A stretch of 64,000 nucleotides of DNA from NCBI GenBank assembly GCA_019637335.1, contig JAHBVV010000009.1, positions 1 to 64,000 on the forward strand, read 5' to 3'. The notes under the pieces are model-generated. The model was given only the letters and a program-made list of their open reading frames with translations. It was not told where the DNA came from and searched no databases. Shown here piece by piece: positions 14,617-27,875 of the stretch (position 1 is its first letter; the number at the start of each line of letters is the position of its first letter). The DNA is from Candidatus Hydrogenedentota bacterium. Lineage in GTDB: Bacteria > Hydrogenedentota > Hydrogenedentia > Hydrogenedentales > JAEUWI01. The translations under genes and the position numbers were made by a program.

Positions 14617-17600
14617 TTACGGCGACACCTCGCAGTTTCTGAGGCTCGACTTCAAGGCCAAGATCCCCTCTTCGGTCACGCCCGAGCTCGGCGTGATGTG
14701 GAGGCGTTTGAGCGAGGGCAGGCCCTGGAAGAAGTCGATGCTCTGGTTGGAAATGGAGGCGCCCATAACGGTCACGTCGGCGAGGTAGGGCTGTTGCGAG
14801 AAATTGTTCAGACCGGCGTCGGTCATCCGGTAGAGGTTGATCAATTCAAGCGTCCGCAGATGCTTGAAGCGGCTCAGGGCGCCGAGGCCCGCGTCGGTGA
14901 CGTCGATTTCCTTCAGGGAGAGGTGGAGCAATCCGGTGTGGCGGCCGACATGCGCGAGCCCGCTGTCTTTCGTGTTGGGGCCGGAGAGGCCAACGCCCTG
15001 AAGGGCGCCCGGGTCTATAGCGTCCAGGAATGAGAGGTCGCTGGTGTCGTACCCAACTTCCAGGCGGGCCTCAACGCCTTCGGCCAGGGAGACGGATCCC
15101 TGCGCCTGGCCGCGTTCGGTCCAGCTTCCGGGGTTTTCGGGGTTCCACGGCCGGGTGAATATGCGTCCGACGGACGCCGCGGGGAAGGCGAGCGTGCGCG
15201 CGGGCGGCCTTGCGACAACCTGCCCGAAAGGCACGAGTTCCGCCGGGCGGTCTTGTATCACGGCGCGGGGCAGGACGGTGGCAAGCAAATCCCGGCCATC
15301 GCGGCTGATGGGCGCGTCGACCTCGAGTCTGCGCAATTCCGGCAATGCGGCCAGATGGCCCAGGTTATCGTCGTTCAGGATCAGGCGGGGCAGCGAGAGG
15401 GACCAGATGTACGGGGCGTCCAGCGTACGCAGGACCGAGAGGTCGGCGGCGGCCTCGTCGTTCATTTGCAGGCGGAACACCTGATCAGACATGGCGTTCA
15501 CGGCGCCCAGCGCGCCTTGTTCGACGGGCTCCCAGGCGCCGGTGTCAAAGGCGCTGCGCGCCACGGCGTAGAGATCGCCGAGGGAACGGTCGGCGGGGAA
15601 ATGCAGTACGATTTCCTGGACGGTCTCGACGGGGAGCGGCGTGGGCCTCAAGTAATTATTGTAGACGAAAATGAAGGCAATCCCCGCGGCGACGATGCCG
15701 CCCATGACGAGGTACGGGATGCGGCTTCCCGTGGAATAGCGCTCCTTGGCGCGTTTGAGCAGGAATTCCGTGCGCGCGAGGGTGTCGTCCTGCTCGTCGA
15801 GGGTCTTCCGCAGGGTTTCGACTTCGGCGCGGGCCTTTTCGAGGCTTTCCAGCTGCCTTCGTTCCTCGTCTTTGAGGAGTTCCAATTCCTTGTGGAGGGC
15901 TTCCTGCGAGGTGTCGGCGTCGGTGCGCTGCTTCTCCAGGAGCGCGAGCTCGCGCTTGAGCTCGTCGACGGCGGCCTGATTTCGGGCCTTTTCCTCGTTG
16001 GCGCGCTGTGCGGCGGCCTGCTGATCGGCGAGGGCCTGCTGGAGGGCTTCGAGCTCCTTGCGGGACTGCTCCAGCGCGGCGTTCTTTTCTTCCTCGTTCT
16101 TGCGAAGGGATTCGAGTTCGCCGGCGAGTTCGGATTCGGAGGATGCGGCTTCCCGGGCCTTGGCCTGGATTGCGGCGAGCTCTTCTTGAAGCCGCCGCAT
16201 CTGCTCCTGGCTGGCCTCGTCGGTGTCGGCGGCTTTCTGGACTTCCTGTTCGCGGGCGGCGAGGGCCTGGCGGAGCTCTTCGACTTCCTTGCGGGCATCC
16301 TCGAGGGCCTGGGATTTGCGGGACTCGTTTTCACGCAGTTGTTCGACTTCGCTCGAGAGGGTCTTTTCGGAGGAGTGGGCCTCGGTCGCCTGGCTGCGCA
16401 GGCCTTCGAGTTCCTTCTGCATGGCGGCGACCAGCGCTTCCTGCTCCGCATTGCTCGCACGGGCGTCATCCGCGGCGCGTTCGCGCGCCTCCAGGGCCTC
16501 GCGCAGCGCCACGAGTTCCTGGCGCGCGTCGTCGAGATCCTTTGTCTTTTGTGATTCGCTGGAGCGGAGCGAGTCGAGTTCCGCGGTGAGGTTCGCCTCG
16601 GAGGAGGATGCCTGGCTCGCCTTTTCGTGCAGCGAAGCGAGTTCCTTCTGCATTTCCGCGAGGCGGGCTTCCTGTTCGCTGCTGGTTTGCGCGGCCTGCT
16701 CCATGGCGGCCTCGCGCTCGCCCAACTGGCCGCGCAGGGCTTCCAGTTCCGCCCGGGCGTCGTCGAGGGTCTTGCTTTTCTCGGCTTCGCTTGCGCGCAG
16801 GGTTTCGAGTTCGGAGGCCAGCTGGGTTTCGGACTGGGAGGCCGACCGGGCCTCGTCCTGGAGCTTCGCAAGCTCCTGTTGCATCGCGGCGACCTGGGCG
16901 GCCTGCTCCTCGCTGGCCTTCCGCGCGGCCTCGACGGCGGATTCGCGATCATTGAGCTGGCTCTTGAGGGTTTCGAGTTCGCCCCGCGCGCTTTCGAGCG
17001 TTTCGGACTTGGAGGAGCCATCCTGGCGCAGCTGTTCGACTTCGCGGGCGAGGGTTTTCTCGGATTCGGCGCGTTCGTGCACCTGCTGACTCAGGGCGGC
17101 CAACTCGGCTTCGAGTTGCTCGCGCGCCTCCTGGCTCATGCTGGCCACGTCCTGCGCTTCTTTTTCTCGCTGCGCCAGCGCGGACTTCAATTGCTCGAGA
17201 TCGCCGCGGGTCTTTTCGAGGTACTCGGCCTTTTCCGCTTCCTTGGCCCGGAGGGACTCCAGTTCCGCCGCCAGGGCTTTTTCGGAGGAGGACGCGGCCT
17301 CGGCCTGCCGCTGAATGGCGGAGAGTTCGCCGTGGAGGGCGGCGATGGCCTCTTCCTTCTCCTTGCTTCGCGCTTCCGCCTCGGCAACTTCCCGTTCGCG
17401 CTCGTCGAGGGCGCCGCGCAACTTCGTCAATTCATTGCGCGCGTTTTCGAGGGCTTTGGTCTTGCTGCGTTCGTTGTTGCGGAGTTGTTCGAGTTCCGCG
17501 AGCAGCGCCTGCTCCGACGTGGAGGCCTGGGCGGCCTGTTCCTGGATGAGCGCGAGTTCCTGGTTGAGCTTCGCCAGGGCGGCTTCGCTCTCGCGGCTGC

Positions 17601-18879
17601 GGGCCTCGGCCTCCCGGACTTCGTTCTCCCGCTCGTCGAGGGCGCCGCGCAACTGGGTCAATTCGCCCCGTGCATTTTCCAGCGCCTGCGCCGCGCTTTT
17701 CTCGTTGGCGCGCAACTGCTCCAATTCCGCCTGCAACGCCTCCTCGGAGGAGGACGCGGCGGCGGCCTGGCTCTGGATGGCGCTCAGTTCGCTCTGGAGC
17801 GCGGCCATGGCGGCCTCGCTTTCGCGGCTGCGGGCTTCGGCGTCGGCGATGGCGGCCTCGCGGTCCTTGAGGCTGGCCTGAAGCTGCCCGAGTTCGGCGC
17901 GCGCTTGCTCCAGTGCCTCGGATTTGCTTCGTTCGTTGGCGCGCAGCTGTTCGAGCTCGGCGTGCAGGGCTTTTTCCGAGTCCGCCGCGCTGGCGGCGTT
18001 CTGCTGGATCTTTTGCATTTCGCCCTGAAGCTGCTGGATGGCGGCTTCCTGCTCGGCGCTGACGCGCTCGGCCTCCGCCACCGCCTTCTCCCGTTCCGAG
18101 AGCTTGTCCTGGAGGGAGGTGAGGGCGCCGCGCGCTTCCGTGAGGGCCTGTTCCTTGGTGGATTGCTCGGAGCGCAGCCGCTGTAATTCATCGTGCAGCT
18201 GGCGTTCCGATTCTGCGGCGGAGGTGGCCTCGGCGTTCAGCTCGGTGAGCTGTGCTTCCAACTCGGCCATCCGCGCTTCCTTGGCCTCGGAATCCTCGAC
18301 GACCTGGCGGATGGATGCCTCGCGTTCTTCGAGGAGGAGCTTGAGGTTTTCCAGCTCATCCTGCGAGCGCTTGAGGTTGGCGGCCTTCTCCTGTTCCGCG
18401 GCGCGCAGGGCGTCCAGTTCCGCCTGAAGGGTCGATTCCGATTCGGAGATGGAGCCGGCGTGGGATTTGAGGCGGGTGAGCTCCTCTTGCAACTGGGCCA
18501 CGGTCTGCTGGAGTTCGGCCTTGTCGAGCGCGTCGGCCAGCCGGTTGTCGAGCGTCTGCCGGAGCGTGTGGATGTGCTTATCCTGATCGGCGGCGGCTTG
18601 TTCGAGGCGCTGAAGCTGGGGGGCGTCGAGGAATCCGGCGAGGGCCTCGTACTGCTCTCGGGTGAGGGCGATCTGGCGCTGGGCGGCGTCACATTGCTCG
18701 AGCGCCTCGTCGACCCGGTTCAGGGCGGCGAGGTTTCGGGCATGCATGTAGGCGAGCACGGGGTTGCCGGGCAAGGTTGCGTTGAGCGCTTCAAGAAGGT
18801 TCAGCGCTTCGCTGTGCCTGCGTTCCCGGAAGTGTTCGTTGGACGCTTGAAACTTGTCTTCCAAGGTCGAAAACTGCAT
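14617..18879 (-). CDS. 1420-residue membrane protein of tandem 77-residue coiled-coil units with LRR-like C-terminus
   Basis: I recognise the architecture but no named family. Residues 1-85 form a TPR-like helical region (RRHSEALNLLEALNATLPGN). From about 88 to 1050 the chain is continuous coiled coil rich in Glu, Ala, Gln, Leu and Ser; from residue 145 it consists of eleven full tandem units plus one partial one, each 77 residues except one of 74, marked by SSSEEALQAELEQLR-like starts. One membrane helix lies at about 1053-1077 (LVMGGIVAAGIAFIFVY). The C-terminal 340 residues include leucine-rich-repeat-like segments (LRTLELINLYRMTDAGL, LKRLHITPSSGVTEEGI). With N-terminus inside, the coil would be cytoplasmic and the LRR part outside. 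A scaffold, polarity or motility role is possible but unproven. ATG 18879 follows a TTGACA promoter. Confidence 0.85.
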   Translation of the reverse strand: MQFSTLEDKFQASNEHFRERRHSEALNLLEALNATLPGNPVLAYMHARNLAALNRVDEALEQCDAAQRQIALTREQYEALAGFLDAPQLQRLEQAAADQDKHIHTLRQTLDNRLADALDKAELQQTVAQLQEELTRLKSHAGSISESESTLQAELDALRAAEQEKAANLKRSQDELENLKLLLEEREASIRQVVEDSEAKEARMAELEAQLTELNAEATSAAESERQLHDELQRLRSEQSTKEQALTEARGALTSLQDKLSEREKAVAEAERVSAEQEAAIQQLQGEMQKIQQNAASAADSEKALHAELEQLRANERSKSEALEQARAELGQLQASLKDREAAIADAEARSRESEAAMAALQSELSAIQSQAAAASSSEEALQAELEQLRANEKSAAQALENARGELTQLRGALDERENEVREAEARSRESEAALAKLNQELALIQEQAAQASTSEQALLAELEQLRNNERSKTKALENARNELTKLRGALDEREREVAEAEARSKEKEEAIAALHGELSAIQRQAEAASSSEKALAAELESLRAKEAEKAEYLEKTRGDLEQLKSALAQREKEAQDVASMSQEAREQLEAELAALSQQVHERAESEKTLAREVEQLRQDGSSKSETLESARGELETLKSQLNDRESAVEAARKASEEQAAQVAAMQQELAKLQDEARSASQSETQLASELETLRASEAEKSKTLDDARAELEALRGQLGEREAAMEQAAQTSSEQEARLAEMQKELASLHEKASQASSSEANLTAELDSLRSSESQKTKDLDDARQELVALREALEARERAADDARASNAEQEALVAAMQKELEGLRSQATEAHSSEKTLSSEVEQLRENESRKSQALEDARKEVEELRQALAAREQEVQKAADTDEASQEQMRRLQEELAAIQAKAREAASSESELAGELESLRKNEEEKNAALEQSRKELEALQQALADQQAAAQRANEEKARNQAAVDELKRELALLEKQRTDADTSQEALHKELELLKDEERRQLESLEKARAEVETLRKTLDEQDDTLARTEFLLKRAKERYSTGSRIPYLVMGGIVAAGIAFIFVYNNYLRPTPLPVETVQEIVLHFPADRSLGDLYAVARSAFDTGAWEPVEQGALGAVNAMSDQVFRLQMNDEAAADLSVLRTLDAPYIWSLSLPRLILNDDNLGHLAALPELRRLEVDAPISRDGRDLLATVLPRAVIQDRPAELVPFGQVVARPPARTLAFPAASVGRIFTRPWNPENPGSWTERGQAQGSVSLAEGVEARLEVGYDTSDLSFLDAIDPGALQGVGLSGPNTKDSGLAHVGRHTGLLHLSLKEIDVTDAGLGALSRFKHLRTLELINLYRMTDAGLNNFSQQPYLADVTVMGASISNQSIDFFQGLPSLKRLHITPSSGVTEEGILALKSSLRNCEVSP
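15730..18447 (-). repeat. Twelve tandem 231-bp coding repeats (77-residue units)
   Basis: Unit starts in the protein fall at residues 145, 222, 299, 376, 453, 530, 604, 681, 758, 835, 912 and 989. Spacing is exactly 77 residues in every case but one (530 to 604, 74 residues). Each unit follows the scheme Ser-x-Ser-Glu, ELxxLR, Lys, LExARxEL, LRxxLxEREx, then a Glu/Ala helix and a closing QxELxxI segment. 77 equals eleven heptads or seven hendecads, so the periodicity preserves the coiled-coil register. The DNA copies differ at many sites, so the expansion is not recent. Confidence 0.9.
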
Positions 18880-19007: not shown

Positions 19008-20501
19008 GTGGCCGATACGTCTGAGGTTCTGGTGCTGTCCTGCGCTTGCGGGCAGAAGATGAAGATTCCCGCGGATGGCATGGGCCGCACCTTCAAGTGC
19101 GTCCGCTGTGGCGCCCACATCAAGGTCTCCGAAGAAAACAGCGCGCCCCTTCCAAGCCAGGCGCCGCCGCCCGCGGAGAAACCGCCCGCGCCGGAGAAGC
19201 CGCCGGCGCCCGAGCGGGAGCCCGCGGAGCCACCCGCCGCGCAGAAGCCCATCGGGGACTTGCTGGTGGGGGCGGGGCTGATCACCGAGGAGCAGCTTGC
19301 CGAGGCGCTGAGCCGCCAGAAGTCGCAGGGGGGCAAGACCTTCGAGATACTGCTTGCGCTGGGCTATCTCGACAAGGACGCGCTGCACGCGTTTCTTTCG
19401 CGGCAGCCGGGCATCGCGAACATTGATCTTTCGCGCTTCAATATCAGCCCCGAGCTGGTGAATCTCATCCCGAAGAAGCTCGCGGTTGAGAATCTGGTGC
19501 TGCCGATTGACCAGCTTGGGAAACTGTTGACGGTGGCCATGGCGTGCCCGCTGGACGTGGCCACGATCCAGCTTATTGAGCGAACGACGGGCCTGAAGGT
19601 CAAGGCGATGCTCTGCAAGCTGGAGGATATCCACGCGGCCGTCCAGAAGTATTACCCGGAGCGGAAGCATTTTGAATTGAGCCCGTCGAGCTTCGACCAC
19701 CTGCCCGGGGCTTCGGCTCCGCGGGACAAGGTGGATGAGAAGCTGAAGAAGTGGAACGGGATGATGGTTTCGGGTGAGCGCCTCAAGCAGATTGCGGAGG
19801 AGATCGCGCCCCCGGAGGTCACGCTGGATCTTGTTACGGCGGTTGTCCTGAATGAGCCGGCATTGGGGGCGACGCTGCTGCGGATTGCGAACAGCGAGCT
19901 TTACGGTCTTCGCGGCCAGGTCGATAGCATACCAATGGCCGTCGCTGTGATTGGAAAGCCGGGCATACAGCAGTTCCTGACGGAGTTCCTGGAGCCGGCG
20001 GACCCGAAGGCTATAGCGATCATTGCGCCGTGGGTCGAGACCAGCCTGCGGGCCGCGCAGTATGCGCGCGATCTGGCGCGCGAAAGCGGCGTGCTGGGCC
20101 CGCATGTGGCGTATTCGCTCGGCCTGGTGTCGGAGTTGGGCCGCATGGCGATGGCGCTGGTGTCTCCCCTGCAATACAAGCGCGTCAAGTCGAATTTGCA
20201 CGGCGAGCCGCTTGCGCAGGCTGAGTTGAAGGTGTTTACGATGGATCACTGCGAGGTTGCGGGGATGCTCGGGGTCCAGTGGCATTTACCGGCATCGATC
20301 ACGCGGCCGCTGGAGTATTACCTCGCGCCAAAGGAGGCCAAGGAGATGGCGCCGCAGTGTCACCTGCTCGCGCTGGCGGTCGGGTTGGCGAACAAGGCCG
20401 ATGAAGACCGGGAGAAGGTGCTCGCGGCGTACAGCGCTTCCATTGAGGCGCTTGGGATATCGGCTGACGCCGTTCGCAAGATAGTCGGGTCCGCGCGGTA
20501 A
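19008..20501 (+). CDS. Zinc-ribbon / MshEN / HDOD regulatory protein
   Basis: A 497-residue cytoplasmic signalling protein starting at GTG 19008 with GGAGAG upstream. Residues 10-40 form a zinc ribbon (CAC at 12-14 and CVRC at 31-34). A Pro/Ala/Glu-rich linker follows to about 80. Residues 84-215 are a type II/IV secretion ATPase N-terminal (MshEN) domain with IGDLLVGAGLITEEQLAEAL; this domain binds c-di-GMP in MshE, but the usual Arg-Leu-Gly-x-x-Leu boxes here read PIGDLL and TFEILL, so binding is uncertain. Residues 245-430 are an HDOD domain (AVVLNEPALGATLLRIANS, and GLVSELGRMAMAL). HDOD proteins lack catalytic HD residues and act as regulatory adaptors, often in motility. It forms an operon with the Nif11-like gene 28 bp downstream. 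Confidence 0.8.
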   Translation: MADTSEVLVLSCACGQKMKIPADGMGRTFKCVRCGAHIKVSEENSAPLPSQAPPPAEKPPAPEKPPAPEREPAEPPAAQKPIGDLLVGAGLITEEQLAEALSRQKSQGGKTFEILLALGYLDKDALHAFLSRQPGIANIDLSRFNISPELVNLIPKKLAVENLVLPIDQLGKLLTVAMACPLDVATIQLIERTTGLKVKAMLCKLEDIHAAVQKYYPERKHFELSPSSFDHLPGASAPRDKVDEKLKKWNGMMVSGERLKQIAEEIAPPEVTLDLVTAVVLNEPALGATLLRIANSELYGLRGQVDSIPMAVAVIGKPGIQQFLTEFLEPADPKAIAIIAPWVETSLRAAQYARDLARESGVLGPHVAYSLGLVSELGRMAMALVSPLQYKRVKSNLHGEPLAQAELKVFTMDHCEVAGMLGVQWHLPASITRPLEYYLAPKEAKEMAPQCHLLALAVGLANKADEDREKVLAAYSASIEALGISADAVRKIVGSAR

Positions 20502-20529: not shown

Positions 20530-20766
20530 ATGTCGGAAGAACAGGCGCGCGCCTTCATCGAGTTTGCCGGTAGAACGCCGGCGGTTCAGGCGGAGTTGGA
20601 AAAACTGCGAGGGCCGGGCGTATTTCAGCGGCTTATCGAGATGGGCTCCCGCTACGGCTACGAGTTCACGGAGGAAGCGTATCGGGATGCGGTGATCGCG
20701 ATGGCGGAGGGGGAACTGTCCGACGCGGCCCTGGATGAGGTGCTCCGGGAGACAGGGCTCAAATAG
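20530..20766 (+). CDS. Nif11-like small protein
   Basis: A 78-residue protein whose first 50 residues match the Nif11 / NHLP-leader domain (PF07862): MSEEQARAFIEFAG, then TPAVQAELEKL and a GYEFTEEAY helix. In RiPP precursors this domain is the leader and ends with ELSDEELE followed by a Gly-Gly cleavage site; here the equivalent is GELSDAALDEVLRETGLK, without Gly-Gly and without a Cys/Ser/Thr-rich core. It is therefore probably a stand-alone Nif11 protein rather than a lanthipeptide-type precursor. It follows the HDOD gene by 28 bp and ends 6 bp before the convergent SPASM-type gene. Confidence 0.75.
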   Translation: MSEEQARAFIEFAGRTPAVQAELEKLRGPGVFQRLIEMGSRYGYEFTEEAYRDAVIAMAEGELSDAALDEVLRETGLK

Positions 20767-20772
20767 GGGCCG

Positions 20773-21501
20773 TTACTTCTGGCAGAGGTGCCGCGCGACG
20801 AGGGGTGGGCAGCCGCTGCAGTTCCGGCCCGGGACCGGCTCGGAGGGGGTAACGCAGTGGGGCAAGCGTGGATTGTGCATGATGGCGTCGAGGCTTCCAT
20901 CCATCACGGAGCCGAGGTAGAACTCCTCTTCGCCCGCGACAAGCCCGCAGGTATAGAGGCGTCCGGAGGGGTCGACGTAGACCATTCGGGCGGGAAAATC
21001 ACACGCGGCGCCTTCCTCGGGGATGGGGGGCGCGGACTTTGCGACGCTGACGCCCCGGGCCTCAAGATCGGCGTATTCCCCGGCCGCTTCGGGCTCCACC
21101 AGCAGGATGCAGGCCTCTCCACGCAATTCCAGCAGCATTTCCCGCTCTTCCGGGCGCAACTCGCCCTCCGCCGCGTGAACACATACGGTCATGTCGTGTG
21201 TATTTCGGGCCCAGCGGCAAATGGCGGGTACGGCGGCGCGGGACGCTGGCGGTCCGAGGGTAACGACAAGCCAGTTCACGCCCAGGGATGCCGCTTCATC
21301 GATAATGTTCAGCCACTCGTCGTCGCCGAGCGCCTCCGATTCCGTCCCGGCGCCCATTTGCAGCCAGAGGTAGAAGATATCGCCTTCGGAGCGGGCGGCG
21401 CCGGCCCGGGCGCATGCGGCGAGCCCCTGGCGGATCCGGCGGCCGAGCGAAAAGAACTCGAGCGGCTCGCCCGTGGCTTTATCTTCCGGTGTGTGCGTCA
21501 A
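20773..21501 (-). CDS. SPASM-domain protein lacking the radical-SAM CX3CX2C motif
   Basis: A 242-residue protein starting at TTG 21501 with CAGGAGAG eight bases upstream. The C-terminal third is SPASM-like: Cys167, then Gly180-x4-Cys185 (PSGRLYTC), Cys216, Cys228-x2-Cys231 and Cys240, enough to hold an auxiliary Fe-S cluster. The N-terminal part (40-150) resembles a radical-SAM half barrel: LWLQ strand, DDEWLNIIDEAASLGV helix, then VVTLGPP in place of the usual TGGEP. No cysteine occurs between residues 31 and 94, so the AdoMet-binding CX3CX2C motif is absent. It is either a degenerate radical-SAM enzyme or a partner protein. It converges on the Nif11-like gene. Confidence 0.65.
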   Translation of the reverse strand: MTHTPEDKATGEPLEFFSLGRRIRQGLAACARAGAARSEGDIFYLWLQMGAGTESEALGDDEWLNIIDEAASLGVNWLVVTLGPPASRAAVPAICRWARNTHDMTVCVHAAEGELRPEEREMLLELRGEACILLVEPEAAGEYADLEARGVSVAKSAPPIPEEGAACDFPARMVYVDPSGRLYTCGLVAGEEEFYLGSVMDGSLDAIMHNPRLPHCVTPSEPVPGRNCSGCPPLVARHLCQK

Positions 21502-21622
21502 GGTTTTACTCTCCTGCGTTGGGCGGGTCGCCCGCCGCAGCCAGATTGCCGCGGCTGTGGAGAAGTAACACTCCCGGGGGGGCGGATCATTTCCGCTGTG
21601 GCGAGTTTCTTCGTGGCGAGGT

Positions 21623-21650
21623 TTGCCGGGCGGCGCTGGCGTGCTATAAT
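21623..21650 (+). promoter_or_regulatory. Strong sigma70-type promoter upstream of the candidate 6S-like RNA
   Basis: TTGCCG (21623-21628), a 16-bp spacer and a consensus TATAAT (21645-21650) occur in a region without protein genes. Predicted initiation is near 21657. The only transcript unit downstream before a terminator (21938-21964) is non-coding. Confidence 0.7.
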
Positions 21651-21721
21651 ACGTCGAACAGCGAGCAAGAAAATAGCATATCCACACGGTCCGCGCCAAG
21701 CGACCGTGGGGAGTTTATTGC

Positions 21722-21885
21722 GAACCGGTTTTTCCCTGCCGTGTGCGTTATGGCATGTAAGCGCCGCACCTTTCGCATTGAACTGGGTGTTCGATATTTG
21801 TGTAGCCAACGCCAGGCCTCCGTAGTTCAGTGGAAGGCGAAGGGCTATCGTGAGAATGCCCCCCTATTGAGGGAAAGGTTTGATG
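21722..21885 (+). ncRNA. Candidate 6S-like regulatory RNA
   Basis: No protein is plausible here, yet the region folds by eye into one long irregular hairpin. Closing stem: TTTCCCT (21731-21737) with AGGGAAA (21870-21876), extended by G-U pairs; next GGCAT with ATGCC; then a large internal bubble; then CCTTT with GAAGG, CATTGAACT with AGTTCAGTG (nine pairs), and GGTGTT with AACGCC near the apex. A closing stem, central bubble and apical stem is the architecture of 6S RNA, which mimics an open promoter and binds RNA polymerase. The 5' strand TTTCCCTGCCGTGTGCG resembles the E. coli 6S start TTTCTCTGAGATGTTCG, and CGATATTT recurs in the apical part. A strong promoter and a terminator flank it. 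A covariance search is required to name it. Confidence 0.45.
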
Positions 21886-21937
21886 CGCTCTTGGCCGGAC
21901 GGCATGCGCGGGGATTTTTTGAAGATTTATGGAATAG

Positions 21938-21964
21938 CGGGCCGCTGCGGGGCGGCCCGTTTTT
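21938..21964 (+). terminator. Rho-independent terminator
   Basis: The perfect 8-bp stem CGGGCCGC/GCGGCCCG (21938-21945 and 21952-21959), with a six-base loop, is followed directly by five T residues (21960-21964). It ends the non-coding transcript just before the pil promoter. Confidence 0.85.
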
Positions 21965-21982
21965 GGGGCCTCAAGTAAATAC

Positions 21983-22011
21983 TTGACAAACTGGTGAGGA
22001 GTGCGTAAACT
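21983..22011 (+). promoter_or_regulatory. Sigma70-type promoter of the pil operon
   Basis: A consensus TTGACA (21983-21988), a 17-bp spacer and TAAACT (22006-22011) lie right after the terminator. Initiation near 22018 would give an untranslated leader of about 220 nt before pilM. Confidence 0.75.
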
Positions 22012-22035
22012 AAATGTGCGGGCCCCTTCGGTGGC

Positions 22036-22095
22036 CTCTCGCCGTCAGATGTTCAGGCCGCAAGCCCTTTTGGGCGCGCGGCGCGCCGGCGAGAG
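22036..22095 (+). other. Structured leader of the pil operon
   Basis: CTCTCGCCG (22036-22044) pairs perfectly with CGGCGAGAG (22087-22095), enclosing a further CCGC/GCGG stem capped by GCCC-TTTT-GGGC. The leader then runs unstructured or weakly paired to the pilM start at 22240. No known riboswitch class (c-di-GMP GEMM, cobalamin, FMN) is recognisable, and there is no U-tract directly after the stem. Confidence 0.5.
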
Positions 22096-22239
22096 CGCTC
22101 CAGACAGGGTCCGGGCATGCCGTCGGCAGCCGCCTGTATGAGGCGTTTGGCGGGGTGTGCGCCAAATAGTGCGCGTGGTGACTACCAGGCCACCCGGCCA
22201 GAGCATCGGTTGGCCGGTCCGAATAGGAGCTCGGGTGTA

Positions 22240-23559
22240 TTGCTGTTCTTCAAAGCAAAGAAGTCGATAGGCCTCGATATCGGCACCCATTCCGTCAAGG
22301 CGGTGCAAATGTCCCGGCGGGGCGGTCGCCTGTGTGTGGACGAGGTGGGCTACGCCCTGGTCGACCGGAATCAGGTCAACGCGGATCCCGTCATGGCGCA
22401 CGCGTCGGCGGTGGCGGAGGCCCTTTCGGGCATGAACCTGAAATCGAGCCAGATTGTGGGGGCGCTACCGGGCCAGACGGTGGTGATCCGGTATCCACGG
22501 TATGCGGAGACGAATCGCGAGCAGCTTGACGCAATCGTCAATCGCGAGGCGGGCCAGAACATCCCCTACGATTTGAACGAGGTATCGCTTGATTGGACCT
22601 TGCTCGACGAAGTGGAAGAGGCCGGCCAGCGGCAGTTGAAGGTGCTGCTGGTGGCGGCTAAACATGAGATCATCGACTCGCGCGTGCAGATTATGGAAGC
22701 GAGCGAGCTGCAATACAGTATTCTCAGCGTGGATTCGCTCGCGCTTTCCGACGCGGCGGAGGCCTGCGATTTTCTCCGTGTGGGAGAGACGGTCGCCCTG
22801 ATCAATATTGGCCTGACGTCCGCGAGCATTCACTTCGTGAAGGACGGTGTGTCGAATTTCATTCGCGATGTGAATTGGGGCGCGCGCGAGTTGATTCACG
22901 GGATCGCGAAGGAGTTGCGCTGCGACTATGAAGAAGCGGAGCGGCGTCTTCAGGACTTCCTGTCGCGCGGACCGGCCCCGGCGCCCGCGGTCGCGGCTCC
23001 CTTAGCCGGCGAGCCGCTTGACAATCTCGAGGATTCGCTTGGGGGCGGGGCCGAGGGAATCCAGACGCCGGAGTCATTGAGCGATTTTGGCGACGATCCG
23101 TTTGGGGAGGCGGGTTACCGGCCCAAGCCGCCCGCGATGGGTGGCGGCGGGTCGCTCCTCGATCCACTGGACGACGAATTCGGCGGGGAGATGGGCGGCG
23201 CCATCACGGGCGCGAGCCCGATGGGCATGGCGGAAGAGGTTGTGCCCGAGATGGACGAAATCGTGTCTTCTTCTCTCAACCGGATGGTTTCGGAGATCCG
23301 GCGTTCATTTGATTACTACGAACATCAACTTTACGAGCGCCCGGTGGACCGCCTGATTGTGAGCGGCGGGATCGCGCATTCGACGCTGGTATGCAGTGTC
23401 TTGCTCGAAGAGCTGGGTGTGGAGTCCGTGGATGTGGCGAATCCGATGAACAGCGCGCTGTACACGGGCGACGAGTTCGCCATGGGCGCGATGGCGGAGC
23501 ATCCGTCGCAGTTCATGGTCGCTGTGGGGCTCGCAGCACGGGGAATGGCGGATCTATGA
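22240..23559 (+). CDS. pilM: Type IV pilus inner-membrane platform protein PilM, with acidic low-complexity insert
   Basis: A 439-residue actin-like ATPase of the PilM family that binds the N-terminus of PilN on the cytoplasmic face. It starts at TTG 22240, ten bases after AGGAG; the product begins FFKAKKSIGLDIGTHSVKAVQ, the phosphate-1 loop. Later signatures are QLDAIVNREAGQNIPYDL, LINIGLTSASIHFVKDG (phosphate 2) and DRLIVSGGIAHSTL (adenosine loop). An insert at about residues 243-333, rich in Gly, Pro, Asp and Glu, divides the fold and makes the protein about 90 residues longer than usual (around 350). First gene of pilMNOPQ; it overlaps pilN by ATGA. Confidence 0.92.
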   Translation: MLFFKAKKSIGLDIGTHSVKAVQMSRRGGRLCVDEVGYALVDRNQVNADPVMAHASAVAEALSGMNLKSSQIVGALPGQTVVIRYPRYAETNREQLDAIVNREAGQNIPYDLNEVSLDWTLLDEVEEAGQRQLKVLLVAAKHEIIDSRVQIMEASELQYSILSVDSLALSDAAEACDFLRVGETVALINIGLTSASIHFVKDGVSNFIRDVNWGARELIHGIAKELRCDYEEAERRLQDFLSRGPAPAPAVAAPLAGEPLDNLEDSLGGGAEGIQTPESLSDFGDDPFGEAGYRPKPPAMGGGGSLLDPLDDEFGGEMGGAITGASPMGMAEEVVPEMDEIVSSSLNRMVSEIRRSFDYYEHQLYERPVDRLIVSGGIAHSTLVCSVLLEELGVESVDVANPMNSALYTGDEFAMGAMAEHPSQFMVAVGLAARGMADL

Positions 23560-24227
23560 TTATCATCAATCTACTTCCCGAAGAACTTCGCCCGATCAAG
23601 CGGACGCCGCTGCCGCACCTGCTGAGCGTGGTGGCGCTTCTGCTCGCGCTTGCCAGCATGGGCTGGATGTTTGTCTCCATCACGGCGCGTATCGCGGGCA
23701 CGCGGGCCGATTTGGCCAAGGCGAACAGCGAGCTGGCGGGCCTCAAGGACGTGGTGGAAGAGTACAACGCTCTGAGCGCGAAGAAAGAGCAGCTGGAGAA
23801 CAAGATCAATGTTATCCAGGAAATCCTCAGCGACCGGATTATCTGGTCGGCGCAGCTTCACAAGCTATCGACGCTGACGCCCAACAATTTCTGGTACCGC
23901 CGGATCCGGGAAACGTCGAAGACAGTCACGATGGAGCGGGTGCAGATAGACGAGAAGACCGGCCAGGCGGTGCTGGACAAGGACGGGCGGCAGAAACTGA
24001 TCCGGGAGAACATCCGGCGTCCGATGCTGGAAGTCTCGGGGTATGTGATCAACGACGAGCAGGGCGTGAACTCCGTTGCGACATTGACGCAGAAGACGGC
24101 GGAGGACCCGGACTTTTCGTCGATGTTTATCCTGGACTCGCCACAGATAACGGATTCAGAGTACAACGGCTATTCCGTGCGCGGATTTACGCTGGAGTAC
24201 CGGATTGATACCGGAGGCGCACCCTGA
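23556..24227 (+). CDS. pilN: Type IV pilus assembly protein PilN
   Basis: A 223-residue bitopic inner-membrane protein. The N-terminal INLLPEELRP motif (residues 4-13) is the cytoplasmic segment that docks into PilM. One membrane helix spans about 22-45, followed by a periplasmic coiled coil (LAKANSELAGLKDVVEEYN) and a ferredoxin-like domain that pairs with PilO. Start ATG 23556 overlaps the pilM stop (ATGA). Its own stop overlaps the pilO start. Confidence 0.9.
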   Translation: MIIINLLPEELRPIKRTPLPHLLSVVALLLALASMGWMFVSITARIAGTRADLAKANSELAGLKDVVEEYNALSAKKEQLENKINVIQEILSDRIIWSAQLHKLSTLTPNNFWYRRIRETSKTVTMERVQIDEKTGQAVLDKDGRQKLIRENIRRPMLEVSGYVINDEQGVNSVATLTQKTAEDPDFSSMFILDSPQITDSEYNGYSVRGFTLEYRIDTGGAP

Positions 24228-24820
24228 TGCTGGATTTCTTTAAAGGAACCGTAACGCCGAAGGATTGGGCCTTTGTGGGCGCGGTGCTGGGGCTGACGGG
24301 GCTGATCTGCGCGGGCTTTTATTTCGGGCTCTACCGGGGGCGGGAGGACGTGCTGGCGCAGGTGACGGCGGAGCTTGCGGATACCCGGCGTGAGCTTAAC
24401 GAGGCCCGCGAGACCCAGGCGAAATTTGACGAGTTCAAGCTGGAGGCGGAGAAGGCGGAGCAGCTGGTGCAGCTTTTCGAAGAGCGGCTTCCCGAGGAGC
24501 GGGAAATACCGCGGCTCCTGGCGCAGTTCGAGAGCCGGGCGAAGGAGCTCGGGTTGAGCGTGGAGTTGACCCAGCTTCCCACCAAGACCGATCTCAACAA
24601 GGAAACCATACCGTATGAGGTGATCGCGCGCGGCGATTTCCACGAAATCGTACAGTTCATTAACCTGCTCGAGCGGGACAAGCGTTACCTGAAAGTGTCG
24701 AATCTGAATATCGGTGAGGAAGTTGCGGGCGTTTCGCAGGCTTCCTTTCACCTGAGCACGTTCCGGTTTATCCAGCGGGCAACAGATATGAGCGTGGCGA
24801 GCAATGAACCAGGAAAATAA
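24227..24820 (+). CDS. pilO: Type IV pilus assembly protein PilO
   Basis: A 197-residue bitopic protein with a short cytoplasmic N-terminus, a membrane helix at about 15-38 (FVGAVLGLTGLICAGFYFGL), a periplasmic coiled coil to about 85 and a ferredoxin-like C-terminal domain (IPYEVIARGDFHEIVQFINLLE), the standard PilO layout. PilO forms heterodimers with PilN in the alignment subcomplex. Start and stop overlap those of pilN and the next gene. Confidence 0.88.
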   Translation: MLDFFKGTVTPKDWAFVGAVLGLTGLICAGFYFGLYRGREDVLAQVTAELADTRRELNEARETQAKFDEFKLEAEKAEQLVQLFEERLPEEREIPRLLAQFESRAKELGLSVELTQLPTKTDLNKETIPYEVIARGDFHEIVQFINLLERDKRYLKVSNLNIGEEVAGVSQASFHLSTFRFIQRATDMSVASNEPGK

Positions 24821-25352
24821 GAAACAAGTCATTATAGCCGCCGTTCTGGGCGTGGTGCTGGTATGTGTACTCGTATACCAGTTTCTCATCGCGGGCGGCC
24901 CGGCGGCGCCCACGCAGACCGCGTCCTCCCGGCCCGCCACCGCGGCGGGCTCGGCGCCCGCGGCGCCCGCCACCGCGGCAACGCCAGCGCGCCTGCGCAA
25001 GGTGGATGTGGATCTGGACAAGCTGATCCGCAATATCGAACCGGTGACGTTTATCTACAACAACGAACGGATCACGAGAAATCCGATGACTCCGCTTGTT
25101 GGCCGGATCTTTTCGGCCAGCGCCACGGACCAGCCGGCGCGCACCTCTATCGGTATTGATTTCAGCATCCGGCAGAAGAAAGTTACCGGGATTATTTACA
25201 ACGAATACAACCCGGTCGCGGTGGTGGACGATGAATTGGTTACGGAAGGACATCAGTATCCGGACGGCGTGATCGTATTCAGGATCGAACCCAAGCGGGT
25301 TTGGTTTGAGTGGCGCGACTCGCAAATACCCGTAGAGCTGAAGGAGCTATAA
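24804..25352 (+). CDS. PilP-position inner-membrane protein
   Basis: A 182-residue protein in the place of pilP. It has an N-terminal membrane helix (about 8-30, VIIAAVLGVVLVCVLVYQFL) rather than the lipobox of classic PilP, then an Ala/Pro/Thr-rich linker and a beta-rich domain with NPMTPLVGRIFSA, VTGIIYNEYNPVAVVDDELV and GVIVFRI, resembling the PilP/GspC homology region that contacts the secretin. It probably couples the PilNO complex to PilQ. The assignment rests on position and weak similarity. Confidence 0.75.
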   Translation: MNQENKKQVIIAAVLGVVLVCVLVYQFLIAGGPAAPTQTASSRPATAAGSAPAAPATAATPARLRKVDVDLDKLIRNIEPVTFIYNNERITRNPMTPLVGRIFSASATDQPARTSIGIDFSIRQKKVTGIIYNEYNPVAVVDDELVTEGHQYPDGVIVFRIEPKRVWFEWRDSQIPVELKEL

Positions 25353-25355
25353 GAA

Positions 25356-27875
25356 ATGACCACGATGCGATGGAATGCCGGGGTTGCGACAGCGTTGTCC
25401 GTGCTCCTGTCAACGGCGCTGGCGGCCGGCGCGGCCCCACAGACAACGTCGAAGTCGCCCGGTCTGGAGATGGCCGGCGTCCAGCCCAGCGTGGCGGTTC
25501 ACCGGATTGCCCAGCCCGCGAACGATCCACACCGGATCGATGTCTTCGTGGAAGAGATTCGCGGGGTGCTCGTTTCCGACGGCGCGCTACCCGGATCGAT
25601 AGAGATCCTGCTTACCGGCGCCCGCATACCATCGGATCTGGAGCGCGTGCTTTATCCCGCCAGCGCGATGGTCGAACGGATTCACTTTGCGCGTTCCGCC
25701 TGGGGCCGGGAGACGGAGGCCCAGATTACGCTTTCCGTGGCCGAGGGCGTGTCCGCGCGCACGCGGGAGCGCGGCGGGGTGCTCGATATCGAACTTGTCT
25801 CCGGAGAAGCCGAGGCGAAAGGATTTGTCGTGCGGCTGCACGCGCAGCCGTTTCCCGGTGGCGATCCCGCCCTGTTCAGCACGGTGCGCCAGGATCTTCA
25901 GGAAATCGCCGCGGCGCCCGCCGTCGCGGACGCGGGTTGGTGGAACGAGGCCGCGCCGTCCACGCCGGTGACGGCGGCCCAGCTGGCCGCGGTCCGGGAT
26001 GCGCAATTCGCGCTTCCGGTATTTGAGAATCTGGTATCGGCGGCGCAGGATGAACGCGCAGCCGGCTCCGAAGGCGGCGCCGAGACTGGAGAGACCGGTC
26101 CGGACGCCCCGGCCGAGCCGCAGGCCCCGGCCGAACCCGCGGCGCCTGTGGATGCGCCTGTGCCGCCGGAACGGCGCGTGCCCACCGCGCCGAACACCGC
26201 CGAGGCCAACAAGGCCCTCACACGCCAGATGGTTGCCGAGGAAAGCCGCCTGGCCCCCGCGGAGGAGGCTCCGGCCAGGGCCGCCAAGCGGGTCTGGACC
26301 GGTAATCCGCTACAACAGCCGGTAACCATCGACTTCCGGGACATGGATCTTCTGAATGTGGTGCAGATACTTGCGGACATGGCCGGCATCAACGTCGTGG
26401 CCGGGGCCGATCTGACCGGGCCGGTCACGCTGAATCTCAGAGATGTGCCCTTGATGCAGGCCATGGAGACCGCGCTCCGCCTGAACGGTCTGGGCATTGT
26501 TGAGGAGGCCGGAATTTACCACATTAAGCCGTACGTTGACGCCATCGCCTCCCAGCGATCGACGGAAGTCATCGAGATCGAGAACGGCGATGTCGAGGAA
26601 ATCGTGACGACGCTGAAGAGTGTGCTTCAGGGGTCGGAATATGAAGCGTTTATCAGCCTGTCATCAAACAAGACGGCGAGCACGGTTATCATTGCCGGGC
26701 CGGAGGCGCACATCGCACCGTTGGTTACGATGGCGAAGCGGCTGGATGTCGAGCAGGCGATACTCCCCACGGTAACGCTTCCACTCAAGCTGAATTACGC
26801 CGAGCCGCAGCAAATGATGGCGGCCATCGATGGAATATTGACGCCGGAGATAGGCCGGGTCGCGCTGGACGAGCGGGCGCGGATCATTATCGTAACGGAT
26901 ATTCCCATCGTGGTGGAGAAGATCAAGGATCTGGTCGAGCAGCTCGACATTCCGGTGAAGCAGGTGGCGATCGACGCGATGATTGTGGACGTGACGTTAA
27001 CGGATGCGGCCGATACGGGCGTGGATTGGCTTATCAGCGCGGTGCAGAGCCAGAGCCGGCGAAATGCGGCGGCCAACAATGGAATCTTCACGGGCAACCT
27101 GCAGGAGTTGAGCTTTGGATCGGATTTGAACATTGGCGATGCGGCCGGCTTGCTTAACTTTGGTATCCTGTCCGGCGATATCGACTGGCGCGGCGTGATC
27201 CAGGCGGAAGTCCGGAACAACAACTCGACGCTGCTTTCCAATCCGAAGCTGATCACCGTGGAGAATCAGAAGGCCACTATTACAATCGCGTCGGAGATCC
27301 CGTATGTCGAGCTGACGCAGACCGACCAGGGCGGCCAGCAGACGAGCACGGAATTCAAGCCGATCGGCACGACGCTGGAAGTAACGCCGAAGGTGACGCA
27401 CGACGATCACATCATCGCGCAGATCGTGGCGAAGGAGAGTACAACCACCCAGGTGCTCAATGGCGTTCCGGTGGAGGATCTACGCCAGATCGACACGACG
27501 CCCCACATTGCCAGCGGGCAGACGATCTATGTGGGCGGCCTGCGCAAAAACAACGATACGGTGTCCATCCGAAAAGTTCCCGTGCTGGGCGACGTGCCGG
27601 TCGTGAATTTCCTGTTCCGGTCCAATCAACGCAGCGAAACGGTCAACGAGTTGCTAATCTTCCTGACGTGCAGCGTGCTGGAGGAACGCCCGAGCCTTAC
27701 GGGTTACCAGCGGGAGAAGGTGGAGCTGGTGCGGAACGCGGAAGTGAAGGTATCCGCGGAGACGGCCTTGATCTACGATGCGGTGCACCCGTCGGAGTTC
27801 CGGGATCCCGCGTGGAAATGGCGCAAGCACGGGCAGGCGAAGGAGAGCGTTGAGGCGTCGGATCCGGCCGAGTAG
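25356..27875 (+). CDS. pilQ: Outer-membrane secretin PilQ
   Basis: An 839-residue secretin that forms the outer-membrane pore for the pilus. Signal peptide 1-27. Residues 50-150 resemble an AMIN domain. A Pro/Ala/Glu-rich linker covers about 235-310. The STN domain is at 320-395 (VTIDFRDMDLLNVVQILADM). Two N-domains follow (about 402-470 and 478-545; VEQLDIPVKQVAIDAMIVDV). The secretin barrel domain is at about 630-820, with PIGTTLEVTPKV and the C-terminal KVPVLGDVPVVNFLFR signature. AAGGAG inside the preceding gene's end serves ATG 25356. Last gene of the operon, followed by a terminator. Confidence 0.93.
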   Translation: MTTMRWNAGVATALSVLLSTALAAGAAPQTTSKSPGLEMAGVQPSVAVHRIAQPANDPHRIDVFVEEIRGVLVSDGALPGSIEILLTGARIPSDLERVLYPASAMVERIHFARSAWGRETEAQITLSVAEGVSARTRERGGVLDIELVSGEAEAKGFVVRLHAQPFPGGDPALFSTVRQDLQEIAAAPAVADAGWWNEAAPSTPVTAAQLAAVRDAQFALPVFENLVSAAQDERAAGSEGGAETGETGPDAPAEPQAPAEPAAPVDAPVPPERRVPTAPNTAEANKALTRQMVAEESRLAPAEEAPARAAKRVWTGNPLQQPVTIDFRDMDLLNVVQILADMAGINVVAGADLTGPVTLNLRDVPLMQAMETALRLNGLGIVEEAGIYHIKPYVDAIASQRSTEVIEIENGDVEEIVTTLKSVLQGSEYEAFISLSSNKTASTVIIAGPEAHIAPLVTMAKRLDVEQAILPTVTLPLKLNYAEPQQMMAAIDGILTPEIGRVALDERARIIIVTDIPIVVEKIKDLVEQLDIPVKQVAIDAMIVDVTLTDAADTGVDWLISAVQSQSRRNAAANNGIFTGNLQELSFGSDLNIGDAAGLLNFGILSGDIDWRGVIQAEVRNNNSTLLSNPKLITVENQKATITIASEIPYVELTQTDQGGQQTSTEFKPIGTTLEVTPKVTHDDHIIAQIVAKESTTTQVLNGVPVEDLRQIDTTPHIASGQTIYVGGLRKNNDTVSIRKVPVLGDVPVVNFLFRSNQRSETVNELLIFLTCSVLEERPSLTGYQREKVELVRNAEVKVSAETALIYDAVHPSEFRDPAWKWRKHGQAKESVEASDPAE

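Follow-up and report, generated by a model that had tools for sequence, protein, structure and literature searches.

The radical-SAM proteins make up one of the largest enzyme superfamilies, and its noncatalytic members have hardly been described. Two families known from other phyla, pseudo_SAM_Halo (TIGR04347) and pseudo_rSAM_GG (TIGR04150), carry NCBIfam names for what we take to be radical-SAM/SPASM-type proteins without the catalytic motif. A further NCBIfam model, GeoRSP_SPASM (TIGR04304, 293 positions), stands for a SPASM partner protein. The closest described enzymes are the twitch enzymes BtrN and MoaA and the SPASM enzymes PqqE, SuiB, SkfB, and anSME, in which a partial barrel is followed by an auxiliary-cluster domain. 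The auxiliary sites of BtrN, MoaA, PqqE, and SuiB bind Fe-S clusters (PMC9012708), the twitch and SPASM domains have both been described (PMC9012708), and the role of the auxiliary cluster in these enzymes is still an open question (PMC9012708). A literature search found no paper on a Hydrogenedentota pseudo-radical-SAM family or on radical SAM in Hydrogenedentes and, among the papers listed, none that uses “pseudo-rSAM” or “GeoRSP,” and it returned nothing relevant on such pseudoenzymes.

Here we analyze a protein family of the Hydrogenedentota that resembles the twitch and SPASM enzymes in its order of domains (partial barrel, then auxiliary-cluster domain), in its CX(9-15)GX4C ... CX2C site, and in finding its best fold matches among them, but that differs from them in being shorter (~240 aa) and in lacking both CX3CX2C and GGEP in 40/40 members, and with them any catalytic cluster site. 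In this respect, it is of the same kind as pseudo_SAM_Halo and pseudo_rSAM_GG. The locus studied here gave no match to either of those models, even at E 1, and none to GeoRSP_SPASM, and we therefore treat the Hydrogenedentota family as separate; proteins of this kind have already been named, and the Hydrogenedentota family itself appears to be new and so far unnamed. The likeness to GeoRSP_SPASM is partial: the SPASM part of that model matches 10 of the 40 members at E <= 0.01, but the match is confined to that part and reaches ~20 bits of a 300-bit cut-off (the best among the matches listed), and no PqqD-like or radical-SAM partner gene was seen beside the Hydrogenedentota gene. Fixed in nearly the whole phylum, with its auxiliary site retained and its catalytic cluster gone, the family offers a clean natural separation of the two clusters and lets one ask what the auxiliary cluster does alone.

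Layout of the locus

The locus lies in what we call the window, that is, the whole stretch of DNA analyzed (64,000 nucleotides). An earlier sequence-only reading had described a Nif11 gene that ends 6 bp from a convergent gene retaining SPASM cysteines. Its coordinates proved exact, and Pfam calls both proteins over cut-off. The features are as follows.

19008..20501, plus strand: Zn-ribbon/MshEN/HDOD regulator-like protein, 497 aa (HDOD, 99.2 bits; MshEN, 61.3 bits)
20530..20766, plus strand: Nif11-domain mini-protein, 78 aa (open reading frame; Pfam Nif11 PF07862, 28.4 bits; cut-off, 23.8)
20767..20772, no strand: 6-bp gap, stop codon to stop codon, between the convergent Nif11 and SPASM genes (read from the sequence)
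21501-20773, minus strand: pseudo-radical-SAM/twitch (SPASM) protein, 242 aa (open reading frame; Pfam SPASM, 22.1 bits; cut-off, 21.5)
20809..21003, minus strand: putative auxiliary metal site, C167-X12-G180-X4-C185 ... C228-X2-C231, twitch-like, with four Cys (Cys invariant in 40/40; Pfam SPASM match, residues 167-232)
21364..21366, minus strand: W46 codon (invariant column in the 40-member alignment; part of the YLW of beta-1)
21502..22275, no strand: intergenic stretch upstream of the SPASM gene (read from the sequence)

The SPASM gene starts with a TTG codon at 21501, with AGGAGAG just upstream, and its stop codon occupies 20773-20775. The MshEN-HDOD gene lies on the same strand as the Nif11 gene, 28 bp upstream of it, and its product begins with a Zn-ribbon-like segment and passes the NCBIfam c-di-GMP_motif model (54.6 bits against a cut-off of 38). 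Divergent from the HDOD gene is the gene for a 1420-aa coiled-coil protein with an LRR-like C terminus (window 14617-18879, minus strand), homologues of which occupy the equivalent place in 12 genomes. On the other side of the pair, a predicted sigma-70-like extended -10 promoter at 21623-21650 (plus strand) points at pilM, and the protein read from 22276 gives a PilM_2 match. A pilMNOPQ-type operon (window 22276-27875, plus strand) lies directly beyond the SPASM gene, and the same order is found in ~12 relatives.

Spread and conserved residues of the SPASM family

A search with the single window sequence found orthologues of the SPASM protein in 52 of 60 relatives, and a profile of 40 rows found them in 58 of 68 Hydrogenedentota genomes and in 34 of the 38 good ones, usually as a single copy per genome. 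Extra profile matches, near E 1e-6, were ordinary radical-SAM proteins with their motifs intact. Pfam SPASM matched 34/40 aligned members at E <= 0.01. A scan for relatives outside the Hydrogenedentota with a 12-row subset and two peptide patterns found none; because it used two such patterns, a distant relative could be missed, and absence outside the phylum is unproven. Genus g36 is a separate case, in that all three of its genomes (G048, G052, and G062) are without the family, which suggests a real loss.

According to the sequence-only reading, the window protein had kept SPASM cysteines (GX4C and CX2C) and lost the AdoMet motif CX3CX2C, and we found that both statements extend to the whole family. 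CX3CX2C is absent from all 40 members, the window protein included, also when the upstream open frame is read, and no relative with the motif intact, which would have refuted the sequence-only reading, was found. Equally, none of the 40 members has a GGEP-like AdoMet-binding motif after beta-2. The C-X(9-15)-G-X4-C...CX2C pattern, in contrast to these motifs, is present in 40/40 members. Only 11 columns of the alignment are invariant (W46, D68, E69, W97, C167, G180, C185, V188, C228, C231, and P232), and beyond C167, C185, C228, and C231, no cysteine is invariant among the 40 members; two others are partly conserved (32/40 and 28/40). The loop after beta-1 varies across the family in both length and sequence. 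A full SPASM domain would have seven cysteines for two clusters; only four are invariant here, which fits a twitch-like site with one cluster and not a complete SPASM site. As a rejected candidate, we also considered an intact CX3CX2C reached through another start or lying upstream in frame; none occurs in the full open frames of the 40 members.

In four pairs, dN/dS was ~0.04-0.23 for SPASM and ~0.09-0.32 for Nif11; these values are rough, with dS often >1 and synonymous sites often saturated. Purifying selection acts on both genes. Decay of the SPASM gene is ruled out by this selection together with the retention of the gene across the phylum.

Predicted fold and remote homology

The AlphaFold model of the SPASM protein (pLDDT 85, pTM 0.80) starts with a helix at its N terminus and comprises a shortened beta/alpha barrel together with twitch hairpins. 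Its top match in VIA-align was PqqE (Z 15.8 over 181 residues, rmsd 3.6 A), and SuiB (Z 14.3), BtrN (12.6), SkfB, anSME, and MoaA were matched as well; unrelated barrels reached only Z 6-7. The top structural neighbors are thus all radical-SAM enzymes, mostly of the SPASM or twitch type, and the model and the PqqE match together identify the radical-SAM partial-barrel fold. BtrN and one SPASM enzyme were also matched by sequence profile, and when the family was compared by hhalign with the catalytic radical-SAM/SPASM proteins found in this phylum, the result was 97.5% with E 5.8e-12. In the latter comparison, the catalytic “LPDERWLxLVDEAAxLGV” aligns with “LSxxDWLNVVDEAASLGA” of the SPASM family, and the positions of the catalytic GGGEP and TNG are taken by other residues. 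In the model, beta-1 comprises residues 44-48, the strand that leads into the CX3CX2C loop in active radical-SAM enzymes. Residues specific to the family and fixed or nearly so are W46, the W97-A98-Q99 (WAQ) motif, and H109, which, judging from secondary structure and the alignment, would sit at the mouth of the barrel.

From the fold, the loss of motifs, and the four cysteines, we are nearly certain that this is a phylum-wide family of pseudo-radical-SAM proteins. The window protein had been suspected of being noncatalytic, a view strengthened by the fact that the loss of CX3CX2C is fixed family-wide and that GGEP has been lost too; with both AdoMet motifs gone, the protein should not make the 5'-deoxyadenosyl radical.

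The Nif11 protein

The Nif11 protein shares its leader domain with the Nif11-derived precursors (TIGR03798, N11P), although its score against the NCBIfam leader_Nif11 model TIGR03798 (22.7 bits) is under the cut-off of 32.3. AlphaFold predicts an all-helical protein of five helices (pLDDT 82). The last segment follows the published leader logo, which has Gly-Gly at positions 12-13 (PMC2887384), up to position 10, as in the precursors. Unlike them, the mini-protein has neither the Gly-Gly at 12-13 nor a core peptide, as the sequence-only reading had stated: Gly-Gly is absent from those logo positions in 12/12 aligned members, and their tails are short and not core-like, that of the window protein ending in LRETGLK. 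It differs from the precursors further in being encoded as a single copy and in having no modifying enzyme or transporter seen in its vicinity. On the gene maps, no maturase, protease, or peptidase-type ABC transporter was evident within ~6.5 kb of the pair, and in none of the 68 genomes did the nif11-peptide radical-SAM maturase TIGR04064 pass its cut-off. We rejected the reading as a standard Nif11 RiPP cluster, there being no core peptide and no TIGR04064 member.

Gene neighborhood

A profile of 12 Nif11 members found the protein in 13 of the 68 genomes and nowhere else in the phylum. In 12 of these 13, the Nif11 and SPASM genes are immediate convergent neighbors, so that a search for co-occurrence in related genomes, proposed in the earlier reading, shows the pair to be conserved; the pattern of SPASM/Nif11 conservation is far above chance. 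In genome G047, Nif11 adjoins the HDOD gene, 15.8 kb from the SPASM gene, and has a giant 2286-codon open reading frame beside it, and in G011, the Nif11-SPASM pair is present without an HDOD gene next to it. The HDOD regulator that had been noticed upstream is an MshEN-HDOD gene and a conserved neighbor, adjoining the SPASM/Nif11 pair or SPASM alone in ~20 genomes. SPASM is present without any Nif11 in 45 genomes (58 minus 13), and its core function is therefore independent of Nif11.

The pair is part of a syntenic block of ~20 kb that comprises rib genes, nusB, PHP, the coiled-coil protein, HDOD, Nif11, SPASM, and pilMNOPQ, and because the whole block is syntenic, adjacency within it is weaker evidence for joint function. 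The SPASM tree mostly follows taxonomic families, indicating vertical descent, and on this tree, ~four changes are needed to explain the presence of Nif11 and five to explain HDOD adjacency. Given such synteny, vertical descent, and so few changes, the conserved adjacency may be inertia. Pairwise distances are correlated between SPASM and Nif11 (rho 0.47, permutation p 0.0025), between HDOD and Nif11 (0.53), and between SPASM and HDOD (0.27), but correlations of this sort are expected from common descent alone.

The genomes of family f5 carry the SPASM gene at a different site; in several of them, it lies upstream of the genes for trigger factor, clpP, and clpX. This argues for a core role independent of both Nif11 and HDOD. 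No neighbor is common to the SPASM gene across the whole phylum, and the neighborhood gives no pointer to that core function. A link of SPASM to Nif11 and HDOD is plausible. At four loci, mostly from f5 (L068, L058, L076, and L067), the SPASM gene lies on the same strand as trigger factor, clpP, clpX, and sometimes lon, upstream of them, with a tRNA-like sequence between SPASM and these genes.

Proposed role and alternatives

We propose that the SPASM protein has kept the partial barrel and C-terminal twitch of a radical-SAM enzyme, has lost the AdoMet motifs, and would perform no radical chemistry. The four invariant cysteines (C167, C185, C228, and C231) probably hold an Fe-S cluster, most likely a single auxiliary-type [4Fe-4S] cluster. 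The site at the barrel mouth that would have bound AdoMet most likely takes another ligand by way of W46, W97-A98-Q99, and H109. The protein is then best read as a noncatalytic sensor or adaptor, its state set by the cluster and the ligand, and in one large clade, Nif11, a leader fold without a core, would be its binding partner or modulator. We give this reading as a whole about an even chance. Its physical link with Nif11, taken by itself, is a tentative proposal that we doubt slightly; if Nif11 does bind the SPASM protein, a RiPP leader fold would be in use without any peptide product. Nif11 could possibly feed into the neighboring MshEN-HDOD (c-di-GMP type) regulator. We regard as a hypothesis the suggestion of the sequence-only reading that these proteins form a recognition system, and its extended form, in which RiPP leader recognition has turned into a signaling module where a dead radical-SAM Fe-S sensor reads, or is read by, a clade-specific Nif11 mini-protein and the output goes to a c-di-GMP-type HDOD regulator, strikes us as unlikely.

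SPASM and Nif11 might instead be adjacent through a retained block of gene order, with SPASM working alone and Nif11 belonging with HDOD or with nothing nearby. Such an explanation draws on the syntenic genes that flank the pair (the coiled-coil gene, HDOD, pilMNOPQ, and others), on the 45 genomes that have SPASM and no Nif11, and on G047, where Nif11 stays with HDOD and not with SPASM; on the other hand, the restriction of Nif11 to these loci within the phylum and the pair that G011 keeps with no HDOD gene beside it both argue against it, and we consider it a serious possibility while leaning the other way. The nature of the metal site admits a different doubt, as four-Cys sites can also hold Zn and the surroundings show no evident Fe-S assembly gene: the cysteines might bind zinc and do no more than stabilize the fold of a structural or ligand-binding protein that has no redox role. 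Their spacing, however, is that of the SPASM/twitch auxiliary sites that bind Fe-S in BtrN, MoaA, PqqE, and SuiB (PMC9012708), and we judge the probability of the zinc alternative to be low.

The pair could also be what is left of a RiPP system, the pseudoenzyme binding the Nif11 leader or a trans precursor and presenting it to a catalytic radical-SAM enzyme encoded elsewhere. The predicted fold is indeed closest to peptide-modifying enzymes, the Nif11 protein has the fold of a leader, 24 radical-SAM matches occur in the genome, and the model that weakly matches 10/40 members through its SPASM part, GeoRSP_SPASM, is a named SPASM partner in a peptide system. We nevertheless find this improbable: the Nif11 protein has neither a core peptide nor Gly-Gly where the logo places it, maturase, protease, and transporter genes were not seen next to the pair, TIGR04064 is over cut-off in none of the 68 genomes, and most SPASM genomes are devoid of Nif11. 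Finally, the Cys spacing differs in certain radical-SAM proteins, and the two partly conserved cysteines might be taken as a sign that the SPASM protein has remained an active radical-SAM enzyme with a noncanonical cluster. That no further cysteine is invariant anywhere, that GGEP has been lost as well, and that the loop after beta-1 is so variable make continued activity extremely improbable, and we return to a noncatalytic sensor or adaptor as the preferred reading.

Related sequences

Several observations concern individual members or neighbors of the family. Two contigs deposited as Nitrospiraceae OTbin.67 (L134) and Rhodothermaeota Bin_8_9 (L135) have match coordinates that coincide with those of the Hydrogenedentota genomes G054 and G032, for which reason their labels are probably misnamings by the depositors. 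Genome G053 (family f11) has two SPASM-family copies, one in L067 and one at G053:C123:503-1210, and the tree places the L067 copy with family f5, as would follow from transfer or contamination. In G031, a 413-codon open reading frame (L140:1-1241, minus strand) lies beside two intact radical-SAM/SPASM genes; by eye, it is radical-SAM-like without the Cys motif (“LRTDGSGEVEALAQLAGEGLEDVLLV”) and may represent a further pseudo-radical-SAM family.
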